Assembly: GCF_000270285.1 (NCBI RefSeq)
Contig: NC_015738.1
Location: 2,542,001 to 2,606,000, forward strand
Source: Eggerthella sp. YY7918
GTDB lineage: Bacteria > Actinomycetota > Coriobacteriia > Coriobacteriales > Eggerthellaceae
Length of the DNA stretch: 64,000 bases
Direction: 5' to 3'
The translations under genes were made by a program, and so were the position numbers. The notes under the pieces are model-generated. The model searched no databases. It was not told where the DNA came from and was given only the letters and a program-made list of their open reading frames with translations. The number at the start of each line of letters is the position of its first letter. The stretch's first letter is position 1. Below, piece by piece: positions 12,006 through 44,686 of the stretch.

Positions 12006-14105
12006 TTACAACTTCAGCGCGGTGGCACGACCTTGGCCCACCGCGTCGACCATGAGCGTAGAGCCTGGTCCCTGACACGCACCGATGGCATACACTTCAG
12101 GGGCAAGTTCTTTAAGCTGGTCATACAGGCTTAAACCCGAACCAGGAGACTTGAACACCAGAATGCTGTCCGCCTTGAGGTAGCACTCTTCGCCGTCCTT
12201 GACATATGCGATACCACGCTTATCGATCGCACGGTATTCAACGCCGGTAATAATCTGAACATCGTTTTCCTGTAGCCACTTGAGCGATCTGCTCTTATAA
12301 CGCGGCGGTATACCCTCGCCCACCGTGTCCAAATCCTCAAGAACCGTGACGTTTTTACCGCGTTTGCGCAGGAAGATGGCGCCCTGCACACCCTCAATTT
12401 GGCTACCTAAAACAACGCAGTTCTTACCGATACCCGGCAAAGCGATCTGCGAGAGCTTGTTGATAGCATTCGCGCCGAAGATTTTGAGCGGTTTTTCCGC
12501 CAAGCGCGTTAGCTGGGGAACCGTGGAAACGATACCCAAATCGACTCCCGGGATGTCCGGTACGCCATACACGCCTCCTGTCGCGACAATAATCGCGTCG
12601 GGCTTCATTTCGCGCACCATGTCGGGCGTCACCGTTGTCTTGGTCTTGATGGTCAGCCCCGGCGTTTTCTTGGCCTGGGATGTCAGCCAGTCGATGAGCG
12701 CGGGAACGTTCTCACACACCGTACCCTTCACCATGGTGGCCAGGTTAAGTTCAAGAGCCAAGATGGATTCTTTTTCGCACAACGTCACTTTATGACCGCG
12801 TTCGGCGGCAACGCGGGCGGCCTCGAGCCCGGCAGCGCCAGCGCCCACAACCAGCACCTTTTTCTTCGTTTCCGCAGGCGTGACAGCCATTTCCTTCTCG
12901 CGCAAAAACGCCGGGTTCACACGGCAGCGACGATGCGGCATTTCGTTCATACGCAGCTCATCGCACGTCGCGCAATGGTTGCAACGACGGATATCCTCGG
13001 GTCGGCCTTCCGCTATCTTGTTGGGCATGTCGGGGTCGGCCCACAGGCCGCGCGCGAACAGAGCCAGATCAACTTCGCCCTTTTCAAGCGCCGTTTCGGC
13101 CTTCTCCGGCGTGGCGAAACCAACGCCGAACACGGGGGCGGACACGGCTTGCTTGATGGCAGCAGCAGGAGGAATGGAGAGGCCTTCGCCATCCAGTCGA
13201 TCAAGGTACTGCTTCATATCCTCATCGGGCGAAGGATACATCCAGTAGTCAAGCGCAAACTGCATAGGAACCGGGCCGTAGCCATAGCCGGTTACGCTGA
13301 TGTAGTCGACACCGGCAGCATCGTAGATCTTCGCGATTTCGACACCCTCTTCGATGGTAATGGCATCCGGATGGCCGTATTCCTGTCCGTTCGTGCGCAC
13401 GCCCACAATGAAGTCCTCGCCGCAGCGCTCTTTCACGCCGCGGATGATCTCGCAGACCAAACGCGTACGGTTCTCTAAGGACTGGCAACCATACTGATCA
13501 TCGCGGTGATTCCACACGCGCGACACAAAGCTCAGCAGGAAATATCCGTTTGCCGCGTGCACCTCGATACCGTCGAGTCCGGCCTTCTTCGCGCGCTCGG
13601 CGGCAGCAAAATAGCGCTCTTTGAACGCCTCGATTTCCTCAAGGGACAGCCCTCGGGTGGGGTGGCAGTACGGTTCGGGGCTCGGGAGTTCCTCTGCCGT
13701 CAGAGTCGTGGAGCACCAGGCGCCACCCTTGGTTTTGATCGCGGCGCCATTTTGGAAGATTTGAGCGATGAGCTCGCATCCATTGCCGTGTACGGTGTCG
13801 GCCAGCTGAGACAGGCCGGGGATGAACTTGTCGTCGTAGAGGCCACCGAGCGGGTACGTTTCTACCGTGTAGACGCCACCGTCGGCATCGTCGATCAGAG
13901 TGGCAGGATCGTCGCAGATCATGCCTCCCAAGATGATGGCCGAAGCACCACCTTTGGAAATCGCATCATACAGGCCGATGATCCTATCGTTGCAGAATTG
14001 ACCCGGATCCCAGGACATCGCGGACGACGGCGCCTTGACCATGCGGTTGCGCCAATGATGGGTGCCGATGGTAATCGGCTCAAGCAATTTTTCATACGCT
14101 CTCAT
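12006..14105 (-). CDS. Old-yellow-enzyme type NADH:flavin oxidoreductase / 2-enoate reductase, paralogue
   Basis: 699 residues, same three-part plan as its neighbour: FMN barrel opening LLEPITIGTHHWRNRMVKAP, Fe-S cluster cysteines CNHCATC...C (CX2CX2CX12C), then FAD/NAD(P) domains with VVGAGAAGLEAARVAAERGH. The two proteins are clearly paralogous but diverged, like the BaiCD/BaiH pair that reduces two different double bonds of one steroid. Second gene of the unit that begins with the EthD gene upstream; GAAGAGGG precedes the ATG. Cytoplasmic. Substrate unknown. Confidence 0.88.
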   Translation of the reverse strand: MRAYEKLLEPITIGTHHWRNRMVKAPSSAMSWDPGQFCNDRIIGLYDAISKGGASAIILGGMICDDPATLIDDADGGVYTVETYPLGGLYDDKFIPGLSQLADTVHGNGCELIAQIFQNGAAIKTKGGAWCSTTLTAEELPSPEPYCHPTRGLSLEEIEAFKERYFAAAERAKKAGLDGIEVHAANGYFLLSFVSRVWNHRDDQYGCQSLENRTRLVCEIIRGVKERCGEDFIVGVRTNGQEYGHPDAITIEEGVEIAKIYDAAGVDYISVTGYGYGPVPMQFALDYWMYPSPDEDMKQYLDRLDGEGLSIPPAAAIKQAVSAPVFGVGFATPEKAETALEKGEVDLALFARGLWADPDMPNKIAEGRPEDIRRCNHCATCDELRMNEMPHRRCRVNPAFLREKEMAVTPAETKKKVLVVGAGAAGLEAARVAAERGHKVTLCEKESILALELNLATMVKGTVCENVPALIDWLTSQAKKTPGLTIKTKTTVTPDMVREMKPDAIIVATGGVYGVPDIPGVDLGIVSTVPQLTRLAEKPLKIFGANAINKLSQIALPGIGKNCVVLGSQIEGVQGAIFLRKRGKNVTVLEDLDTVGEGIPPRYKSRSLKWLQENDVQIITGVEYRAIDKRGIAYVKDGEECYLKADSILVFKSPGSGLSLYDQLKELAPEVYAIGACQGPGSTLMVDAVGQGRATALKL

Positions 14106-14173
14106 AGCTTAGTTCCCTCTTCTCATTCAACGTTGCTGCCACGTCTTGTTTTCACAAAAGCTCATTCGGTTAC

Positions 14174-14875
14174 CTATGCAGAAGGCAAAGCAACCGGGTA
14201 TGTTTCAGTTAGATAGGTGTTGATTGCGCCGACAAACTCCGCAGCGTGCGCGGATGCGCGTGCAAACTCGGGCGATGTACAAAATTCGTCGAGTGCCTCT
14301 TGAGTTTCGAACCACAGTTCCACCACGCCCTCAACAGGCAGTTCTTCGTATGGAATGGACACGCCGCCATCGATGCGATCGATGACGAGATCCTGGTTGT
14401 ACCCTACGCATCCGGGAATGGTCTGAGCTATACGGTCGTGAACGTTCCACCATTCCTTGACGAAACGCTCCGAACTCACGCCTTCGGCACGGCTCAGAAA
14501 CGACACGCGCTGGATAAGCTTCTTCCCACGCAAATACTCGGGGATTTTGATGACCGTGCGCTTGGCAAGCACGAGGATCTGGCAATGGGGATTTGCAAAC
14601 AGCGGCACATCGTTAGCGCCTTCGCCATGCAGCGATTCCACACCCTCAAGCATGTCGCCATAGCTATCGAATTGCAGTTCAGAGTACCCGTCGATAATCA
14701 CCGGACCCTGGTTCAGAGAGTTATGACCTTCGCGATCGACTACCACGTGTTGATCGTACTGACGCAAATTCGCCATAGCGCTCGCGATGGGTCCATGCAC
14801 GTTCAACCAGTAGTCTTTAAACTCTTCCATGCTCATATCTTCTTTTTTCTGCATTAATCCACACCTGCTGATCAA
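14174..14875 (-). CDS. Tandem EthD-domain protein (subfamily A), probable TTG start
   Basis: 233 residues, two EthD-like halves (first: ISRCGLMQKKEDMS, YWLNVHGPIASAM, YDQHVVVDRE; second: LIQRVSFLSRAEGVS, EWWNVHDRIAQ, GYNQDLVIDR). An in-frame ATG nine bases upstream abuts the GGGAGG ribosome site with no spacing; TTG eight bases after that site fits better, and the decayed copy of this leader at 18237 has ATG exactly there. First gene of the EthD-OYE-OYE(-MFS) unit, downstream of a conserved hairpin and the palindromic box. Closest relative: the EthD protein at 3833. Confidence 0.78.
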   Translation of the reverse strand: MISRCGLMQKKEDMSMEEFKDYWLNVHGPIASAMANLRQYDQHVVVDREGHNSLNQGPVIIDGYSELQFDSYGDMLEGVESLHGEGANDVPLFANPHCQILVLAKRTVIKIPEYLRGKKLIQRVSFLSRAEGVSSERFVKEWWNVHDRIAQTIPGCVGYNQDLVIDRIDGGVSIPYEELPVEGVVELWFETQEALDEFCTSPEFARASAHAAEFVGAINTYLTETYPVALPSA

Positions 14876-35931: not shown

Positions 35932-37725
35932 CTAGAAAGCCATCTTTGCGCTTTCGACAGGAACGGGATACTCCTCGCCCATCATGGCGTGCGCGCCCAG
36001 CCAGGCAAGCGTCGTGCAACGACCCATGCACAGTCCACCATAAAGCTGCGGATAGTTGCCGTTGAAGAATCCGCCCACATCGAGTCCTGCCACATACAGA
36101 CCCTCGATAGCCTTGCCTTCCGGCGTGACAGCCTGCATCTTGTCATTCACATGTACGCCCGTAAGCGTTGCAAGCGCCCAACCAGCCATCTTCGCTGCGT
36201 AGTACGGCGGCTTATCCAAACCAGACAGACGCCACGGAGCCTTATGGAAGTCAACATCTTCGCCAGCAGCGGCCATCTCGTTATAGCGCTCCACCGTAGC
36301 CAAGAAGTTCGCCTTTGCATCGGCATCGAAGCCCATGGTATCGGCAAGCTCTTCCAAGGTGTCGCAGCGAATAACATTGCCGTTTTCCACGTTGGGCTCA
36401 AGGTAGACCTCACGCCATTCGGCGTCGTCACGACAGGGATAGAACTGGCCCAGCAGCAGACAGTTCTTTGCACCTTCCTCGGCCACCAGGCGCGAGCAAA
36501 TGGTCGTGCCAAAGTTTACGATATCTTCCCAGCAGCTATCGTCGAACACCTGCCACCAGAAATGTCCGGGCTGCTGTACTGCAAGATTGAAGGCGAAGTC
36601 ATAGGTGTTGTCTTCGTTGCAATAGCGCTTACCGAGAGCATTTACGCGCAAGAACGGTTGAGAACCGGGCCACCAGAAGTTCGGACAGCCGCCGCCCTGT
36701 ACGCCCAGTCCGCCGTTGTCCTCACCGGCAGCCGTAATGCAGCCGCGGTCAAAGATGAGCATCGAACCGGCAGAAGAGGAATCCCTTTCTGCGCCGGCCC
36801 ATGTCGCAAGCTTAATGCCATCGCCATTGCGACCCTCATCGCCAATGTGATTCGTGCAGTACTTATGAGCGACAACGCCCCATTCATCCATCATGTCCTT
36901 GTTGCCCAAGAACCCGCCACAGGCCAGCATGACGCCCTTCGAAGCGTTGTACTGCACATAACCATCCGGCGTTTCGGCGATTACGCCTGTCACCTTGCCG
37001 CCTTCGCCCTCTTGCACAAGCTCGACCGCTTTGTTTTCAAACAGGATCTCGCCGCCGGCCTCGCCAAACAGCTCTACCATAATGGGCATGGCAACTTCCG
37101 AACCCATCGGATTCGCAGTTTCCTGCAACGGCGGCTGATACGCAGTGTGATAGACATTCGTGAAATAGAAATTATCGGGATAGAACTTCTTCTTGATGGT
37201 GTCCACCATCACGTCAGCGCCCTTTTTCTGCAGGTTCTCCTGATACCAGTCCACAAAGCGACCGGAATTATACGCCCACAAACGAATGAGATTCTCGTCG
37301 CATTTTCCCGAAGCGTAGCGCACCAGATCGTGGATGATGTATTCCTTATCGGCTTCCAGTCCCTGGTCTTTCATAAGCTGGCTATCGCACGCGTCGATGT
37401 CTCCGGCCCACATGGTGGGTACCGTACCCTGTTCAAGCACGGCTACCTTGCCGCCAAGTTCGGCAGCGCGCAGGGCAGCTACCATGCCGGAGTTGCCTGC
37501 ACCAACAATGACGATGTCGTAGTCCTTGGTTTCCGCCACATCGCCAGCCACCGACGCCGGCTTTGCATCCCATGTGGTTCCCGAACTCTTCTCGGCACCG
37601 TCTTGGGGCGCGGCTGCGCTTTCTCCTTCTGCCTTAGGACTGCAGCCAAACATTGCGCCCGTTGCTGCAAGAGCGCCCGTCGCCAACGTTCCCGTCAAAA
37701 AACTGCGTCGATCGATGTTTGCCAT
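35932..37725 (-). CDS. Tat-exported FAD-dependent reductase, fumarate-reductase flavoprotein family
   Basis: 597 residues: DRRSFL (5-10), FGC lipobox-like Cys28, FAD loop GAGNSG, C-terminal GLCMGRCTTLAWLGAHAM. After LGKRYCNED comes NTYDFAFNLAVQQPGHFWWQ, placing it with the flavoprotein at 29661. It carries several extra Cys residues, but no CXXCH. Divergent from a 12-TM LuxR gene. AAGGAGG precedes the ATG by ten bases. The acceptor is presumably organic; identity unknown. Confidence 0.9.
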   Translation of the reverse strand: MANIDRRSFLTGTLATGALAATGAMFGCSPKAEGESAAAPQDGAEKSSGTTWDAKPASVAGDVAETKDYDIVIVGAGNSGMVAALRAAELGGKVAVLEQGTVPTMWAGDIDACDSQLMKDQGLEADKEYIIHDLVRYASGKCDENLIRLWAYNSGRFVDWYQENLQKKGADVMVDTIKKKFYPDNFYFTNVYHTAYQPPLQETANPMGSEVAMPIMVELFGEAGGEILFENKAVELVQEGEGGKVTGVIAETPDGYVQYNASKGVMLACGGFLGNKDMMDEWGVVAHKYCTNHIGDEGRNGDGIKLATWAGAERDSSSAGSMLIFDRGCITAAGEDNGGLGVQGGGCPNFWWPGSQPFLRVNALGKRYCNEDNTYDFAFNLAVQQPGHFWWQVFDDSCWEDIVNFGTTICSRLVAEEGAKNCLLLGQFYPCRDDAEWREVYLEPNVENGNVIRCDTLEELADTMGFDADAKANFLATVERYNEMAAAGEDVDFHKAPWRLSGLDKPPYYAAKMAGWALATLTGVHVNDKMQAVTPEGKAIEGLYVAGLDVGGFFNGNYPQLYGGLCMGRCTTLAWLGAHAMMGEEYPVPVESAKMAF

Positions 37726-37955: not shown

Positions 37956-39446
37956 ATGGACGCACGGGGGAGCTCCAAGAGTCTGCTTGAGCATTTCAAT
38001 AACCGCTTCAGGTTTCGCCATTTGGGATTAGGGTTTCTCTGGGCTTGGATTTATTGCACGTGGCTTTCGCCTGCGCTTTTTGATGGAGCTACCGGCCTTA
38101 CCACCAACAACGATATTTCGTGGACCATTTCGGTGGCATTCGTCACAATATCCCTCTTCGTTTCGCCCTTCCTTTTCAAGCGAAACCTCATAGATATCCG
38201 CTGGATACGCATTGCCGCCCCCGTCGCAAACTGCCTTGGCGCTTTTGCGATGGCTCAGCATGTTATCTTCGGCACCAACATCCCTTACGTAAGCGTACTG
38301 GGCGCTGCCGTCACCGGCATTGCCTCGGGCTGGCTTTGGATTATGTGGGGCGAGTTTTTTGGATCGGTTGACTTGGAAATTACCCATTTCACTTTGCCGC
38401 TCACGGTTGCAATTCCCCTGTGCTGCATGCTGCTGACACTCGGTGCGGCGGGACCATTCGCTGGCGCAGGAATCTGCATCCTTCCCCTTGCGTCAGGCGC
38501 GTGTCTTCTGCTCTCGCTCAACGACAAGGAACCTCTCCAGCCCGTCGTAGAAAAGAAGGACCCCCCCCCTGGCCTCTGGACGAATTTCTTGCAGCTTGGC
38601 ATAGCCTCGCTCGCCACCTACGTTGCCATCAGCTTTTGCTGGAGCAGCATCCACTACAATCCTGAGGTTGATTGGACGGGATGGCTCATCGTAGCCTATA
38701 TTGCAGGCGGTATCCTCGCGATGGCCATCGCCTACCTCTCGCTCACGTTTTCTGTGCGAAAGAACGTATTCAGTCTCTACCGCTGGCTTGTCCCTGTCGT
38801 CTTGTTTGCGTTCGCGGCGCTCTCGTTTCAGACGTTTGCCAGCCGCGTCATAGCATTTTTCCTCATCACCATCGTGCAGTACGGGTTCGACATCATCGTG
38901 TGGGTGTATTTCACAAGCATCATTCGTACAGGCGCCTGTTCCGGTCGCGTAGCCGCCGGCATTAACCGCGGATTCGTCCAGCTTGCTGTGCTCCTGGGTA
39001 GTTTGCTGGGACTCGCCTCTCCCGCCTGGGAAGAGGCCGGGCTTATCAGTTTTGCATCGATCGCCTTTATCGTGCTGGGGTGTATGGTCGCGGCCATATT
39101 TATCGTCTTCGTCAACCCAACTAGAGACCAGCTTTCCCCTCTCGATACGTTTGACGTGGCAACGGAAACAGAACTGGGAACCACCCCGTCCGTCGACGGA
39201 CCCCCGCAAAAGCATGACGAAACCGATTACGACCCCGTACTCATCACCTGCAATGAGCTCACCGAGCAGCATTCCCTCACCAGACGGGAAAAGGAGGTCC
39301 TTGTGCTCTTGGCGCGTGGGCGGTCAATCCCTTACATCAGCGATGCGTTGTTCATATCAAAAAACACCGTGGAATCCCATGTGAAGGCCATCTATCGCAA
39401 GCTTGATGTGCACACGCGTCAGGAACTGCTCACCATATTTGAGTAG
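37956..39446 (+). CDS. LuxR-family regulator with multi-TM N-terminal sensor
   Basis: 496 residues; many TM segments (opening HLGLGFLWAWIYCTWL), a charged linker, then the LuxR helix-turn-helix LTRREKEVLVLLARGRSIPYI and SKNTVESHVKAIYRKLDVHTR. Head-to-head with the flavoprotein gene. The ribosome site is weak (GAAAGCGAG). A run of nine C at about 38562 inside the gene is a potential phase-variation or sequencing-error site, but the frame is open across it. Confidence 0.88.
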   Translation: MDARGSSKSLLEHFNNRFRFRHLGLGFLWAWIYCTWLSPALFDGATGLTTNNDISWTISVAFVTISLFVSPFLFKRNLIDIRWIRIAAPVANCLGAFAMAQHVIFGTNIPYVSVLGAAVTGIASGWLWIMWGEFFGSVDLEITHFTLPLTVAIPLCCMLLTLGAAGPFAGAGICILPLASGACLLLSLNDKEPLQPVVEKKDPPPGLWTNFLQLGIASLATYVAISFCWSSIHYNPEVDWTGWLIVAYIAGGILAMAIAYLSLTFSVRKNVFSLYRWLVPVVLFAFAALSFQTFASRVIAFFLITIVQYGFDIIVWVYFTSIIRTGACSGRVAAGINRGFVQLAVLLGSLLGLASPAWEEAGLISFASIAFIVLGCMVAAIFIVFVNPTRDQLSPLDTFDVATETELGTTPSVDGPPQKHDETDYDPVLITCNELTEQHSLTRREKEVLVLLARGRSIPYISDALFISKNTVESHVKAIYRKLDVHTRQELLTIFE

Positions 39447-39641: not shown

Positions 39642-40802
39642 ATGGGAACCACCGAGCGTATTCAAGCCATATGCGACGAGTTTTATGAATTGTGCTCGAC
39701 GCCAGACAATGAGGCGTTGCGCGCTTTCCGAGGGGAGGGAGGGCGCATTCTGGGCGTGCTCTACAACCAGATACCCGAAGAAGTTATTACCGCTGCAGGA
39801 TTTCTGCCCTATCGTATTCGCGCTGTCGGCAGCACTGGCGCCGAGGCGGCGGATGCGCGTTTTACCCAAGTAAACTGTAGCCTGATCAAGCACTTCTATG
39901 ATTCTGCCGCAAAGGGGCGCTTCGACTTCCTCGACGGCCTCGTTGCAACGAACGGCTGCGACCATATACGCAAGCTGCACGAAAATTGGACATCGGTCCT
40001 GAAGCCCGCGTACTCGTATCTGCTTTGCTTTCCGAAGCGCCAGGGCGACGATCTTCAAGTGGCCCAGCTCACGAAAGAGATACGAAAGTTCAAGGCCAGC
40101 TTAGAAGAGCATTTTGGCGTTACGATCACCGATGAAAAGCTCAAAGAGGCTATTGATCTGCATAATCGCACGCGCGAATTGCAGCGAGCCCTCTATAGCC
40201 TGCGCGCAAAAGAGCATCCTCCCCTCACCGGAGCACAGATGCTTGCGGTAATGATGGCGGGAACCTGTATGCCGCGCGAGGCTTACAACGCCCAGCTGGA
40301 ACGCTTGGTGGAGCTGTGCCAAGAGGCCGAAGGCATCGACGACTATCGGGCGCGCGTGGTCATCTATGGCGGAGAGATCGACTCCATTGCGCTGCTTGAG
40401 GCGATTGAAAGCCAGGGTGCGCTTATCGTAAGCGATTCTTTGGGAGGTTTTGGCAAACGCTCGTGCGACATGACGGTGTCAACCGAAGGCGATCTTTACC
40501 ACAACCTCGCCGACGCCTACTTGATGCAACGTCCCGGCGAGCCGCGCCTGCATGGCACTCGCGCCGCCCGTTGGGCCTATCTTGAGCGCACCGCCGAAGA
40601 GGCCAACGCCCAGGGCATTATCCAGATTCATATACCCATATGCGATCTTTGGAGCTATGAGCGGATTATGTTCGACACCCATGTTCAGAAGCACGGTCTT
40701 TCTTGCCTCGACCTTGATACTGAATACATATTCACAAGCGCGGGCCAAACCCGCACGCGCGTACAGGCATTTGTAGAAACCCTCACGGAAGGTGGTCGCT
40801 AA
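39642..40802 (+). CDS. 2-hydroxyacyl-CoA dehydratase / benzoyl-CoA reductase-like subunit (HgdB/BcrC type)
   Basis: 386 residues. GVLYNQIPEEVITAAGFLPYRI is the family N-terminal signature; cysteines in VNCSLIKH, TNGCDH and YLLCFPK are positioned to ligate a [4Fe-4S] (or double-cubane) cluster. Such subunits pair with a second one and are fed very low-potential electrons by an ATPase activator. The next two genes supply exactly these partners. AGGGGTGAAGG precedes the ATG. Whether it dehydrates a hydroxyacyl-CoA, reduces an aromatic ring or reduces another small molecule cannot be told. Confidence 0.85.
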   Translation: MGTTERIQAICDEFYELCSTPDNEALRAFRGEGGRILGVLYNQIPEEVITAAGFLPYRIRAVGSTGAEAADARFTQVNCSLIKHFYDSAAKGRFDFLDGLVATNGCDHIRKLHENWTSVLKPAYSYLLCFPKRQGDDLQVAQLTKEIRKFKASLEEHFGVTITDEKLKEAIDLHNRTRELQRALYSLRAKEHPPLTGAQMLAVMMAGTCMPREAYNAQLERLVELCQEAEGIDDYRARVVIYGGEIDSIALLEAIESQGALIVSDSLGGFGKRSCDMTVSTEGDLYHNLADAYLMQRPGEPRLHGTRAARWAYLERTAEEANAQGIIQIHIPICDLWSYERIMFDTHVQKHGLSCLDLDTEYIFTSAGQTRTRVQAFVETLTEGGR

Positions 40803-40803
40803 C

Positions 40804-42099
40804 ATGAAGCCCGGACTTGAACGCTTTTACGCCTACCGCGACGTGTTTGCTGGAGGCATTGCCCAATTGGAGGCGGCTCCTGAGCTTGACGACCTCTCCG
40901 TTTTACAGCTCGACTTCTTCAAGCTCGCCCTCAAGCACGCAGAGCGCATGATCCATGCCATCGAAAACGACGAGCCTATCGTTTCGGAATGGTATGGCAA
41001 TGCCTGCGAAATCTATGCCGCCATGGATCTGACGCATTTCTGCCCTGTTGACCTCATTATCGCCACGCAGCCGTTCTTCGATACGGTTGAGCGCATGCAC
41101 GAAGGTGACACCCCGCACGATTCATGCGGCCTTATCGAACTTGCCGTGGATGGCGTTCGGCGCGGTATCGTGCCTACCCCCACCGTCATCACCGGCATGC
41201 TTGAGCCCTGCGACGCACAAAGTCTCATGCATGAAGCATGGGAAACGGTGGAGGGCTGGGAAAACATTCCCACCATCTCGCTCGACCCGCCGTACGGCTA
41301 CGGCGATGAGGATATTCGGTACTTCGCCGATCAGCTCAAGCGGGAAGTGGCTTTCCTGGAAGAGCATACGGGGCACACGATGGACTGGGATGAGCTGCGC
41401 CGCGTCTGCGAGGAAACCAATAAGATGAATGCCGCTTGGGACGATCTTAACCATTGCCTCATGCAGAAGCCCTGTCCGCTTCATTCCCTCCAAGCGGCCG
41501 AATGGGGTTGGAGCGCCGCGCTCCACATCAATTGGCCAGGCGATCCCGAAGCGACTGCGTTTTTTGAAAACATGGCAAGCACCGCGGCTGCACGCGTTGA
41601 GCAGGGCATTGGCGCGATACCCAAAGAACAGATTCGTATTCTCTGGGCCGATCTGAACGGATCATGGGCGCAAAATGCCATCGGACCTTGGCTTGAAGAA
41701 ACCTATGGCGCCGTCATGGTAAACAGTTTCGCCGGTCGGACCCCCTACACGCCCATTGATACCTCAACGCCGGAAAGCATGCTGTTCGGCTTGGCGCGCA
41801 AAGGCATCAACGAGGTCCCTATGATCCGTCAGGCGCGCGGTACCGTTGATATCTTCCTGCAAGACGTCGCCGATATGTGTCGTGATTACCAGGTGGATTG
41901 CGTCTTCTTCCCCAATCACAAGGGACATAAAGACCAGGGCGGAAACATCGGGTATCTACGCGAACTCTGTCGTGAGATGGAAATGCCTTTGCTCTCATTC
42001 ACGTCTGACATTTTCGATCCCACCTTCCTGCCCATCGACCAATTGCAGCGCATTATCGCTACGTTCTTTGAAACGCAGGGCTGGAAGCCTCTCAAGTAA
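40804..42099 (+). CDS. 2-hydroxyacyl-CoA dehydratase / benzoyl-CoA reductase-like subunit (second)
   Basis: 431 residues, one base after the preceding gene, so co-translated. Family features: EWYGNACEIYAAMDLTHF, TPTVITGM region, LFGLARKGINEVPMIRQ and CVFFPNHKGHKDQGGNIGYL near the C-terminus. Compared with classical HgdA/BcrB, the expected Cys positions are only partly filled (Cys in NACEIY, PCDAQS, QVDCVFF), so cluster ligation may differ between the two subunits. A terminator-like hairpin separates it from the activator gene. Confidence 0.8.
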   Translation: MKPGLERFYAYRDVFAGGIAQLEAAPELDDLSVLQLDFFKLALKHAERMIHAIENDEPIVSEWYGNACEIYAAMDLTHFCPVDLIIATQPFFDTVERMHEGDTPHDSCGLIELAVDGVRRGIVPTPTVITGMLEPCDAQSLMHEAWETVEGWENIPTISLDPPYGYGDEDIRYFADQLKREVAFLEEHTGHTMDWDELRRVCEETNKMNAAWDDLNHCLMQKPCPLHSLQAAEWGWSAALHINWPGDPEATAFFENMASTAAARVEQGIGAIPKEQIRILWADLNGSWAQNAIGPWLEETYGAVMVNSFAGRTPYTPIDTSTPESMLFGLARKGINEVPMIRQARGTVDIFLQDVADMCRDYQVDCVFFPNHKGHKDQGGNIGYLRELCREMEMPLLSFTSDIFDPTFLPIDQLQRIIATFFETQGWKPLK

Positions 42100-42109
42100 G
42101 TGCGCGAAA

Positions 42110-42143
42110 GCAAGGCGGGCGGCCAGGCGCAGGCCCGCCTTGC
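42110..42143 (+). terminator. Hairpin between dehydratase and activator genes
   Basis: GCAAGGCGGG / CCCGCCTTGC, perfect 10-bp arms followed by TCGCTTTGC. May attenuate read-through so that the activator is made in lower amount, as suits a catalytic activator. Confidence 0.6.
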
Positions 42144-42182
42144 TCGCTTTGCATCCTGCGCCCATCAAGACGGGGGGAAGTC

Positions 42183-43034
42183 ATGTATGTTCTTGGATGT
42201 GACCTTGGGTCAACCGCTGGCAAAGCGGTTATGCTTGAGACGACCGAAGGCACCGAAGATACGGTCCGCATAGTTGCTTGGGCAATAGAGCCCTCTGGTT
42301 TTTCACCTGACGAAACGGCGCAGCTGGTCATTGATCGCATGTGCAATGATTTGGAGATGGCCGAGCAAATCCACATCGCAGCATCCTGCTGTACCGGATA
42401 TGGTCGCGAGCATGTTCAAAGCATCCCTCACAATGTCTCGGAGATATCGTGCCACGCCCGCGGCGCGCATTTTCTGCATCGTACCGCTCGCACCATCATC
42501 GATGTAGGAGGTCAGGATGTAAAAGTAATCGCACTCAGCAAAACGGGCAAGGTGCTCGACTTCGCCATGAACGACAAGTGTGCAGCGGGCACCGGCAAGT
42601 TCTTCGAGGCCATGGCCCGCACGTTGCGCTGCAGCGTTCAAGAGCTGGGAGACCTTTCGCTTGGCAGCACCGAGCCCGCTCCCATTTCAAGCACCTGCTC
42701 GGTATTTGCCGAAAGCGAAGTGATCACCCACATAAACAAGGGAGTCCCGCGAGCCGATATCGCAGGTGGAATCCATGAATCCATCGCTCGGCGACTCACG
42801 GCCATGGTAAATCGCGTCGGCCTTGCCGAAGACGTCATCCTCACCGGCGGATGTGCGAAAAACAAGGGCCTGCGTGCCGCCCTTGAGCATATGCTCGGTA
42901 TAAGGTTGGCAGAACTTCCTTGCGATCCGCAAATCAACGGCGCTTTGGGCGCAGCGCTTTTCGCACTGGACGCCTACCGCGATCAAAACAATCCTGCAGT
43001 TGAATCCCACGCAGAACGGAACACTCATGCATAG
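42183..43034 (+). CDS. ATP-dependent activator of the dehydratase (HgdC/BcrA/BadF family)
   Basis: 283 residues, ASKHA-fold ATPase: GCDLGSTAGKAVML (phosphate loop 1), DVGGQDVKVI (loop 2), and NDKCAAGTGKF plus STCSVFAESEV with the two Cys that hold a bridging [4Fe-4S] in the homodimer; LTGGCAKNKGLRAALE closes the nucleotide site. It couples ATP hydrolysis to injection of a low-potential electron into the dehydratase component. GGGGGGAAG ribosome site. Overlaps the next gene by eight bases. Confidence 0.92.
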   Translation: MYVLGCDLGSTAGKAVMLETTEGTEDTVRIVAWAIEPSGFSPDETAQLVIDRMCNDLEMAEQIHIAASCCTGYGREHVQSIPHNVSEISCHARGAHFLHRTARTIIDVGGQDVKVIALSKTGKVLDFAMNDKCAAGTGKFFEAMARTLRCSVQELGDLSLGSTEPAPISSTCSVFAESEVITHINKGVPRADIAGGIHESIARRLTAMVNRVGLAEDVILTGGCAKNKGLRAALEHMLGIRLAELPCDPQINGALGAALFALDAYRDQNNPAVESHAERNTHA

Positions 43035-43818
43035 CTTCGACGAGCTCATTTTACAAACTCGCGACGTATTGCATGCACACGACGCGCGTGGGTCGGCTTT
43101 TTCCGCGGCAGAACACACGCTGCCAATCCCACCCTTGGAAGAACTTCCCATTCCCGTTGGACCCCATGTCGGTAGAGGCATTGTTCTGCGCGCCAACACC
43201 GCCGTCGAGCTGGGCGGCACAACAAACGACTCGTGCGCCCTTGTTTTAGCCACAAGCGACACTTCTCTTGTGCGCGATGGGTACGTATCGCTCTTTGGCC
43301 CAGATATTGCTCAACTTCGCTCGTCCGACTCCGCAGAAACGGCTGTCCACACCCCGTTCGCCCAAATCATTTTCGTGGCGGGAGAAAACCTTGCACCGGA
43401 TGATTTTTCCGCGCTTGAACAATGCCAACGGGCGAAAGATTACATTGACGGGTATTTGGTACGAAGCTTTACCGGGCAAGTGCACAGCCGCGTTTCGCGT
43501 CAGCTTGCCGACCGTGGCTTCACCTTGGCCATGTTGGCAAGCGCGCTATCCCATATAGTTAAACAAGCCTGCCCCGCTGCCCAAAGCGTTGAGGTTGCGT
43601 TTGCCACCGAACCAGACAGGGTCCAACGGTGTATCCCCGTGCGCGATGCCTGGATAGCCTCATCGCACGATTTGCGAAAAGCCCGTTGGCTGGAAAAGGG
43701 GATCGACATCGACTGCCCCGCGGGCGGGCATTGCGGATCATGCGCCGATAAAGCAACCTGCGACCGCGTACGCGCCATAGCACGCATGCGAAAAGAAAGG
43801 CAGGCCGTTCATGCCTAG
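43027..43818 (+). CDS. Protein resembling the middle domain of acetyl-CoA synthase beta subunit (AcsB/CdhC), with C-terminal Cys cluster
   Basis: 263 residues. From about 35 to 170 the order of motifs (PVGPHVGRG, AVELGG, DGYVSLFGPDI, IIFVAGENLAPDDFSALEQ, YIDGYLVRSFTGQVHSR) follows the AcsB/CdhC domain that lies ahead of the nickel A-cluster domain; the A-cluster domain itself is missing. The C-terminus adds CPAGGHCGSCADKATC, enough cysteines for an Fe-S or metal site. Homology is my reading by eye, so moderate certainty. Position between the activator and a CooC-like ATPase suggests a role in assembling or feeding the dehydratase-like enzyme. Confidence 0.55.
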   Translation: MHSFDELILQTRDVLHAHDARGSAFSAAEHTLPIPPLEELPIPVGPHVGRGIVLRANTAVELGGTTNDSCALVLATSDTSLVRDGYVSLFGPDIAQLRSSDSAETAVHTPFAQIIFVAGENLAPDDFSALEQCQRAKDYIDGYLVRSFTGQVHSRVSRQLADRGFTLAMLASALSHIVKQACPAAQSVEVAFATEPDRVQRCIPVRDAWIASSHDLRKARWLEKGIDIDCPAGGHCGSCADKATCDRVRAIARMRKERQAVHA

Positions 43819-44686
43819 CATCCTAACGCGTCCTTTTAGTCTTCTTGCAAATCCGACAATACATTGCCATCGGCTTCCCGACGGCCAACCCCACGTGCAC
43901 CCCAAGGTTTGCACCAAAAGCCATCCGGGACATCGGGTGATTGCGATTTGCGGTAAGGGAGGCGTCGGCAAAACGGCCTTCAGCGCACTCGCGACACATG
44001 CGCTACTTCACCGAGCGGACACAGGCAGGTTACTCGTGGTAGATGCCGACCCCGCTTTTGGATTGGCGTTAGCGCTGGGCCTAGAAACCGACCGAACCAT
44101 CGCCCATGTCCGAGAGCGTTTGCTTGCGGCCGCACGCGGTACCAGTCAGGAAGCCGAACAGGAAATAGCGCAGAATCTCGACTACCTCATATTCGAATCG
44201 CTCATAGAAACCGATGAGTTTGCCTTCCTCGCCATGGGGCGCAGCCAGGATTTGGGCTGTTACTGCTCAGTCAACGACCTTTTGCGCGATGCGATGGAAG
44301 TTCTCGCGCAGGAATTCGACACCGTCCTTATCGATGGCGAAGCAGGACTCGAACAAATCAATCGCCAGGTGGTGGCTTCGGTCGATGATCTCATTATCGT
44401 AACGGATGGGTCGTTGCGGGGGCAGCGGACCGTTGACTCGGTCGTGGCTATGGCGCAGGAACACGCTCTGGTGCCGAATGATCGCATATACGTGGTTCTT
44501 AACTGTCAGGACAAAGATACCGCAAACGCCTATGACACAACGCAGATACCACGACTTTTGGGCTCCATTCCCGCAGACAGCGAGCTTGCCGCTTTCGACC
44601 GCGCAGGCACGTCGCTTCTTACGCTTCCGTCGGACAACCCAGCTTCACACGCGGTGCAGCACATCATCGACCATCTGGTCGGGTAG
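43811..44686 (+). CDS. CooC/AcsF-type metal-insertion ATPase with His-rich N-terminus
   Basis: 291 residues. The P-loop is GKGGVGKT, followed by VDADPAFGLALALGL and the CooC hallmark LGCYCSVNDLLR (CXC metal-binding motif). CooC proteins use ATP to load nickel into CO dehydrogenase or acetyl-CoA synthase. An unusual extension of about 40 residues before the P-loop is rich in His and Cys (HCHRLPDGQPHVHPKVCTK) and could bind metal. Overlaps the previous gene by eight bases. No CO dehydrogenase gene is present in the window, so its client is unclear. Confidence 0.83.
   Translation: MPSILTRPFSLLANPTIHCHRLPDGQPHVHPKVCTKSHPGHRVIAICGKGGVGKTAFSALATHALLHRADTGRLLVVDADPAFGLALALGLETDRTIAHVRERLLAAARGTSQEAEQEIAQNLDYLIFESLIETDEFAFLAMGRSQDLGCYCSVNDLLRDAMEVLAQEFDTVLIDGEAGLEQINRQVVASVDDLIIVTDGSLRGQRTVDSVVAMAQEHALVPNDRIYVVLNCQDKDTANAYDTTQIPRLLGSIPADSELAAFDRAGTSLLTLPSDNPASHAVQHIIDHLVG

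Follow-up and report, generated by a model that had tools for sequence, protein, structure and literature searches.

A five-gene cassette of Eggerthella sp. YY7918 combines a benzoyl-CoA-reductase/2-hydroxyacyl-CoA-dehydratase-type enzyme with a trimmed acetyl-CoA-synthase domain and a CooC/AcsF-type ATPase

The window analyzed here is a stretch of 64,000 nucleotides from Eggerthella sp. YY7918 (NC_015738.1, positions 2,542,001 to 2,606,000), and the system in question is a cassette of five plus-strand genes, P1-P2-P3-P4-P5, at positions 39642-44686. P1 (39642..40802, +) encodes a small HGD-D subunit that resembles BzdN and the double-cubane protein DCCP (PF06050, 1.3e-77), while P2 (40792..42099, +) encodes a divergent large HGD-D subunit, the one with the active site (PF06050, 4.9e-44). 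P3 (42183..43034, +) is an ASKHA-type ATPase activator, or activase (BcrAD_BadFG, PF01869, 2.2e-58). P4 (43027..43818, +; 263 amino acids) is a stand-alone middle domain of acetyl-CoA synthase (ACS; AcsB/CdhC) with a cysteine tail (CdhC, PF03598, 2e-14), and P5 (43811..44686, +) is a MinD-type ATPase of the CooC/AcsF family (AAA_31, 1.7e-12). The start of P2 is either GTG at 40792 or ATG at 40804, and choosing the latter leaves no overlap between P1 and P2. The P3/P4 and P4/P5 junctions overlap by 8 bp each. An earlier reading of the sequence (the original prediction) had described five packed genes for a two-subunit HgdB/BcrC-type enzyme with its ATP-driven activator, an AcsB/CdhC middle domain and a CooC-type ATPase with a CXC motif. 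Genes, strand, order and junctions are confirmed by the frame coordinates, and each assignment is borne out by the HGD-D, BcrAD_BadFG, PF03598 and CooC1 matches.

With its pair of HGD-D subunits and an activator of the BcrAD type, the cassette falls within the family of benzoyl-CoA reductases (BCR), 2-hydroxyacyl-CoA dehydratases (HAD) and DCCP. The closest PDB sequences for P1 are MbdN and BzdN, and P3 scores above the cut-off of TIGR00241. P1 (177.6 bits) and P2 (38.5 bits) stay below the curated cut-off of 350 of NF040772, the model for the double-cubane protein. Because both the curated cut-offs and the cysteine sets are missed, the cassette stands apart from any single BCR, HAD or DCCP member. 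In P3, C133 and C172 are cysteines in 28/28 rows; as in HgdC, they would be the cluster ligands of the activator. Six cysteine columns of P1 match cysteines of BzdN and DCCP in the alignment, and all six are kept in 31 of the 33 P1 rows (26 cassette copies and seven second copies), that is, in every one of the 31 Bacillota rows. Only the window and L025, a locus from the same family, Eggerthellaceae, depart from this. The same two loci, whose P2 proteins share 79% identity, are the exceptions among the P2 rows, 31/33 of which have the three active-site cysteines. BzdN is reported to hold an [8Fe-9S] cluster with six cysteine ligands, and BzdO a three-cysteine [4Fe-4S] cluster (PMC11971306). 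Since six P1 and three P2 cysteines are kept as in BzdN and BzdO, the Bacillota form looks, from its alignment, like a two-cluster enzyme of the benzoyl-CoA-reductase type.

In the Eggerthella genome, searched as a single contig of 3.12 Mb, PF03598 has one match only, at P4, and among 14 control genomes only two methanogens matched. By sequence, the PDB entries closest to P4 are ACS chains. A profile built from 22 P4 rows retrieved 15 distinct PDB sequences at E <= 1e-5, every one of them a subunit of ACS or of the ACS/CO dehydrogenase complex, with AcsB at 4.5e-15. The structure check proposed with the original prediction agrees: a Foldseek search with a P4 model gave 22 rows at E below 1, all ACS, and the top rows from VIA were ACS as well. 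A chance match or an annotation artefact is ruled out by the genome-specific PF03598 match and by profile, Foldseek and VIA matches that point to the same proteins.

P4 ends in the cysteine tail C230-x5-C236-x2-C239-x5-C245 (43714..43761, +), whose C-x2-C-x5-C part is present in 27/27 P4 sequences. It aligns with the A-cluster cysteines C506, C509 and C518 of ACS, of which HMMER recovers the first two and hhalign all three; the counterpart of C506 is either C230 or C236. The cubane cysteine loop is shorter in P4 than in AcsB. From the last strand to the tail, 24 of the 26 P4 sequences in which the spacing pattern could be scored (one was missed) have 35-36 residues, compared to 38-39 in 22 of 36 AcsB sequences, the other 14 having been missed by the pattern. 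The A-cluster domain had been thought missing altogether. This holds for the fourth cubane cysteine and the Cys-Gly-Cys motif, but not for the loop: judged from these alignments, the A-cluster is trimmed, with its first cubane-binding cysteine loop retained. R155, aligned to R429 of Moorella AcsB, is kept in 22/22 rows, and the ACS middle domain is reported to interact with CoA (PMC12289521).

The top PDB sequence for P5 is CooC1 (3kje, 2.5e-8), and a GCYC stretch occupies the CooC CXC position. This motif, Cys150-Tyr-Cys152 (44258..44266, +), lies at the metal-site position of CooC dimers and is, together with the deviant Walker A sequence KGGVGKT, invariant across a 20-row P5 alignment. In CooC1, Cys112 and Cys114 bind Ni or Zn (PMC6006190). 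The Eggerthellaceae proteins additionally have a His-rich N-terminal extension, a putative metal-binding tail; in the window (43862..43933, +) it reads HxH...HxH...HxxH with six histidines, in L025 it has seven, and it also occurs in L026. Some nickel chaperones carry such His-rich extensions.

Six ACS loci were fetched, five of which contain two CooC-type ATPases and the sixth one. A maximum-likelihood tree of 45 sequences, which includes no characterised AcsF, places P5 in a single clade of 27 sequences (support 100/99). On the same 100/100 branch are eight ATPases (181-207 bits), of which ACS loci supplied five; CooC1 and nine ATPases with lower scores lie on the opposite side (100/100). 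The tree has long branches, about which the program warned, and finer placement is unsure. Gregg et al. reportedly divided the CooC family in 2016 into ACS and CO-dehydrogenase subgroups, a division that the placement of P5 fits as far as a tree of sequences can tell. The grouping of P5 away from CooC1 and the A-cluster loop remnant of P4 strengthen the earlier idea of borrowed ACS parts. P5 as an ordinary CooC of CO dehydrogenase is ruled out by the tree, by the Lachnospirales P5 survey and by the rarity of CO dehydrogenase in cassette genomes (both below). As observations on the fetched loci, L154 (7160-11866) and L157 (6811-11582) each contain, in the same order, a CooC/AcsF-type ATPase, a 310-amino-acid gene, a 605-amino-acid gene and a second CooC-like ATPase, with no CO dehydrogenase or ACS seen by eye in the fetched stretches; the Lachnospirales ACS loci L155 and L158 contain two full-length AcsB genes in tandem.

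The cassette is uncommon yet widely spread. We compiled 27 complete loci, all selected for a stand-alone P4 (the window, L025, L031, L036, L122 and L071-L092); L026 was excluded because its contig starts just before P4, and some loci come from near-identical species (e.g., L071/L072), so that rows are not independent. All five genes occur together in 26/27 of these loci, across Eggerthellaceae and Bacillota, and the co-conservation of CooC-like and dehydratase genes in other genomes, on which the original prediction depended, is thereby found. L025 has all five, arranged as in the window. Within the window's family, P4 matched in 4/138 genomes (its own, those of L025 and L026 with about 50% identity, and a fourth with full AcsB), leaving a stand-alone P4 in 3/138; in a sample of the class, 13/296 matched, all full AcsB except the own genome. 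In the phylum of L031, P4 matched in 90/398 genomes with a stand-alone frame in two (G358 and G910), and G910, the source of L122, also has a full AcsB. For Lachnospirales, 392 and 387 genomes were drawn for the P4 and P5 surveys, with at most six first-look candidates scored per genome. The P4 profile matched in 42/392 (23 with a stand-alone frame of <=312 amino acids, 19 with full AcsB only). The top P5 score group (357-430 bits) was found in 22/387 genomes, all with a stand-alone P4; G747, which carries both P4 and P5, is absent from the P5 matches and was taken as outside that draw. A second score group (about 200 bits) comprises 20 other genomes, namely the 19 AcsB genomes and G613, whose gene adjoins an apparent CO dehydrogenase gene, judged by eye. 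No plasmid or viral relatives of P4 and no viral relatives of P2 were found.

The Lachnospirales loci (L036 and L071-L092) hold all five genes in 22/23 cases; P5-P1-P2-P3-P4 is the order at 20 of them, L036 reads P1-P2-P5-P3-P4, and at L092 the genes are scattered across 14 kb. L122 reads P1-P2-P3-second activator-P4-P5. A scan of the genome collection with P2 returned nine loci; the full set is present at L030 (= L025), L031 and L036 and incomplete at the other six. These six and two further P1/P2/P3-type loci in the own genome served as controls: none of the eight has a P4 match, and the sole P5 match is a weak one (25 bits, L032), which we count in favor of an ACS-derived module dedicated to this branch. 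Across 26 loci, the five proteins have pairwise distances that correlate with r 0.74-0.96, although shared ancestry alone raises r.

The usual clients of a CooC-type ATPase are scarce in this setting. The original prediction saw neither ACS nor CO dehydrogenase here, and in the whole Eggerthella genome, too, neither ACS (beyond P4) nor CO dehydrogenase (CooS) has a match. Full AcsB was not found in 26/27 cassette genomes, G910 being the exception, and CO dehydrogenase exceeded its cut-off in 3/26, with weaker matches in nine more (G910 and G330 lay outside the 26-genome CO dehydrogenase and hydrogenase searches). With full AcsB and CO dehydrogenase mostly absent, P5 lacks its usual clients in most cassette genomes. 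What metal chemistry the cassette performs can only be suggested: the CooC-type ATPase with its CXC motif, the A-cluster remnant, the His-rich tail and the lack of ACS or CO dehydrogenase clients would all point to nickel. Iron-sulfur assembly is a live rival to such a nickel role.

On balance, we consider it moderately probable that the cassette encodes an acyl-CoA enzyme of the BCR/HAD family that has five components, depends on ATP and works at low potential, with a dedicated ACS-derived module. The gene set, homologies, cysteine patterns, linkage and phylogeny carry this reading; from them we infer which types of cluster are present, that P4 binds and P5 delivers a metal, and the class of substrate. 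ATP hydrolysis by P3 would drive electrons into P1, whose cluster would be a double cubane in Bacillota and is probably a single cubane in the window. P1 would then reduce P2 at its [4Fe-4S] active site, the presumed place of acyl-CoA reduction or dehydration. P4, as an ACS middle domain, may bind a CoA ester or dock the enzyme, and it ends in a three-cysteine remnant of the A-cluster cubane loop. P5 may load or repair a metal site in P4 and possibly, via P4, also in P1/P2. A bolder version, which we regard as possible but doubtful, makes P4 a stripped-down A-cluster protein with a nickel-bearing or site-differentiated cluster that is loaded by P5, so that P4 takes part in catalysis or electron relay alongside a double-cubane enzyme driven by ATP.

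Several observations weigh against this five-component enzyme with its ACS-derived module. The P4 model has a mean pLDDT (predicted local distance difference test) of only 56, and that of the L031 P4, at 40, was unusable. The posteriors at the C-terminal end of the P4-AcsB alignment are modest, P4 stops soon after its tail, and the fourth cubane and nickel-binding cysteines of ACS are gone. Window P1 is down to three of the six double-cubane cysteines (C79, C106 and C334, the same as in L025), and in window P2, C112 and C140 are followed by His379 (41926-41928) in place of the third cluster cysteine, with a histidine in L025 likewise. Judged by these residues, the Eggerthellaceae form is one with an altered cluster pair, and the window enzyme may therefore differ in its working from its Bacillota relatives. 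L089 (6647-9179) reads P5-P3-P4 without P1 or P2 nearby, so P4 and P5 may serve another partner there, and an activator with an ACS-like module may persist without adjacent dehydratase subunits. Three of the eight ATPases nearest P5 (L154, L157 and L162) do not come from ACS loci, which is why we infer, rather than read off the tree, that P5 belongs to an ACS side. Zn is also bound at CooC sites (PMC6006190), a point that is adverse or neutral. HypA, present near some cassettes, is rejected as proof of nickel, because it always follows a large oxidoreductase (c9, below); the published association of IsrA with HypA and the hydrogenases (PF00374 matches in 16/26 cassette genomes) offer other reasons for it, and its weight as a sign of nickel in P1-P5 is small.

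P4 and P5 might instead be devoted to maturation, with P5 and a P4 scaffold assembling or repairing the unusual iron-sulfur cluster (double cubane) of P1/P2 and neither catalysis nor nickel involved. Such a role would suit the six double-cubane cysteines in 31/31 Bacillota P1 rows, the co-occurrence of P4 and P5, and the description of the P5 family as cluster maturases (PMC6006190). It sits poorly with the eight examined P1/P2/P3-type loci that do without P4, and with the window lineage, which keeps P4 and P5 despite its lost double-cubane cysteines. We also know of no such helper for DCCP or BzdNO, and we hold this explanation to be unlikely, if one to reckon with.

Less plausible still, P4 could bind CoA esters and serve in docking or substrate transfer with no functional metal; its cysteines would then hold structural Zn, and P5 would act as an ATP-driven switch. 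The reported interaction of CoA with the ACS middle domain (PMC12289521), the arginine R155 in 22/22 P4 rows and the absence of the ACS nickel ligands are in favor of this, but a reading that gives metal no role can hardly account for three invariant cysteines at A-cluster positions together with an ATPase from a family that serves metal sites. The locus with P5-P3-P4 but no P1 or P2 would best suit an independent ACS-like activity of P4 and P5 (acyl transfer or thiolysis) that shares an operon with the dehydratase by chance. All five genes in 26/27 complete loci, the missing nickel ligands and, with the caveat of shared ancestry given above, the correlated distances make this very improbable. 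A defence system was considered as well and dropped, as PADLOC gave no match for P4 or P5.

Among known systems, class I benzoyl-CoA reductase (BzdNO) and DCCP come closest, with a two-subunit HGD-D core (one subunit kind in DCCP), an ASKHA activator and six cysteines that align with those of Bacillota P1. The cassette differs from them by its scores below the family model cut-offs, by the extra P4 and P5 and by the three of six cysteines in window P1. The (R)-2-hydroxyacyl-CoA dehydratases HadBC/HadI and HgdABC have the same fold and activator, and HadC, like window P1, misses part of the double-cubane cysteines; unlike HadBC and HgdABC, the cassette has P4 and P5, a histidine for the third cluster cysteine in window P2 and scores under the family cut-off. 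P4 shares the middle-domain fold and the first three A-cluster cysteines with AcsB/CdhC, but has no N-terminal CO-dehydrogenase-binding domain, fourth cubane cysteine or Cys-Gly-Cys dinickel site, and CO dehydrogenase exceeds its cut-off in just 3/26 cassette genomes. P5 has the KGGVGKT and CXC motifs of AcsF/CooC and shares a clade with ATPases mainly of ACS loci, yet it forms a separate 27-sequence clade tied to the cassette, with a His-rich N-terminus in Eggerthellaceae. The IsrA isoprene-reductase operon of A. wieringae likewise combines anaerobic reductase genes with their own nickel chaperones (PMC10134865), but its core enzyme is unrelated and it has HypA/HypB and no CooC-type ATPase. 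No paper on this combination was found by title or abstract start, in a search outside which most subscription papers lie.

The genes around the cassettes offer hints on substrate and regulation. Acyl-CoA genes lie within about 6 kb at L031, L036 and L122: ETF-QO-like, acyl-CoA dehydrogenase, acetoacetate-decarboxylase-like and enoyl-CoA hydratase genes upstream at L031, EtfA and acyl-CoA dehydrogenase about 5 kb away at L036, and acyl-CoA dehydrogenase about 2.5 kb away at L122. Because of these neighbours, the substrate is likely an acyl-CoA. At L122, a 594-amino-acid frame (12690-14471, -) stands directly upstream of P1, the frames overlapping by 14 bases; Pfam and NCBIfam gave nothing for it at 1e-5. 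The identification of neighbour families c5, c9 and c10 rests on a single representative each, and HypA was confirmed at 7/7 places. An Old-Yellow-Enzyme-type flavoenzyme (c5) occurs at nine Lachnospirales loci and adjoins P4 in eight; the best NCBIfam models for its representative, bilirubin reductase and BaiCD, are both well under cut-off. At seven loci (L078 and L083-L088), P4 is followed by a Fer4/GltD-like oxidoreductase (c9, 960-989 amino acids) and then HypA. Oxidoreductase-HypA neighbours have been published for IsrA homologues (PMC10134865), and c9 with HypA may be a candidate IsrA-like unit coupled to the cassette. Seven loci (L071, L072, L073, L075, L076, L079 and L080) have a second, divergent P1-P2 pair beside the cassette, which may share its activator, P4 and P5.

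In the window, a membrane-type LuxR gene (37956..39446, +; GerE/LuxR domain, 1.1e-16) lies upstream of the cassette, and a homologue (2.2e-67) takes the same position at L030 (= L025); its product is probably the regulator of the cassette. A scan for terminators and promoters gave a result close to chance. Beside the LuxR gene lies a gene for a TAT-signal FAD reductase (35932-37725, -), and at L025 a Cgr1-like cytochrome c gene follows P5 (301 bits, under the cut-off of 340).

The original interpretation is thus partly supported, and its central idea is strengthened at the level of the genes. Very low potentials are within reach of BCRs, 2-hydroxyacyl-CoA dehydratases and double-cubane proteins, and the role of the last has been called still unclear (PMC11971306). 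With its own module of ACS origin, this conserved branch offers a testable link from such enzymes to nickel or cluster maturation, and it would be a case of an ACS domain put to new use outside the Wood-Ljungdahl pathway. If the bolder version holds and the cluster of P4 bears nickel or is site-differentiated, two ancient systems would have been assembled in anaerobic bacteria into an acyl-CoA reductase of a new nickel/iron-sulfur class. The cassette hints at a metal-dependent enzyme system in several groups of anaerobic bacteria.

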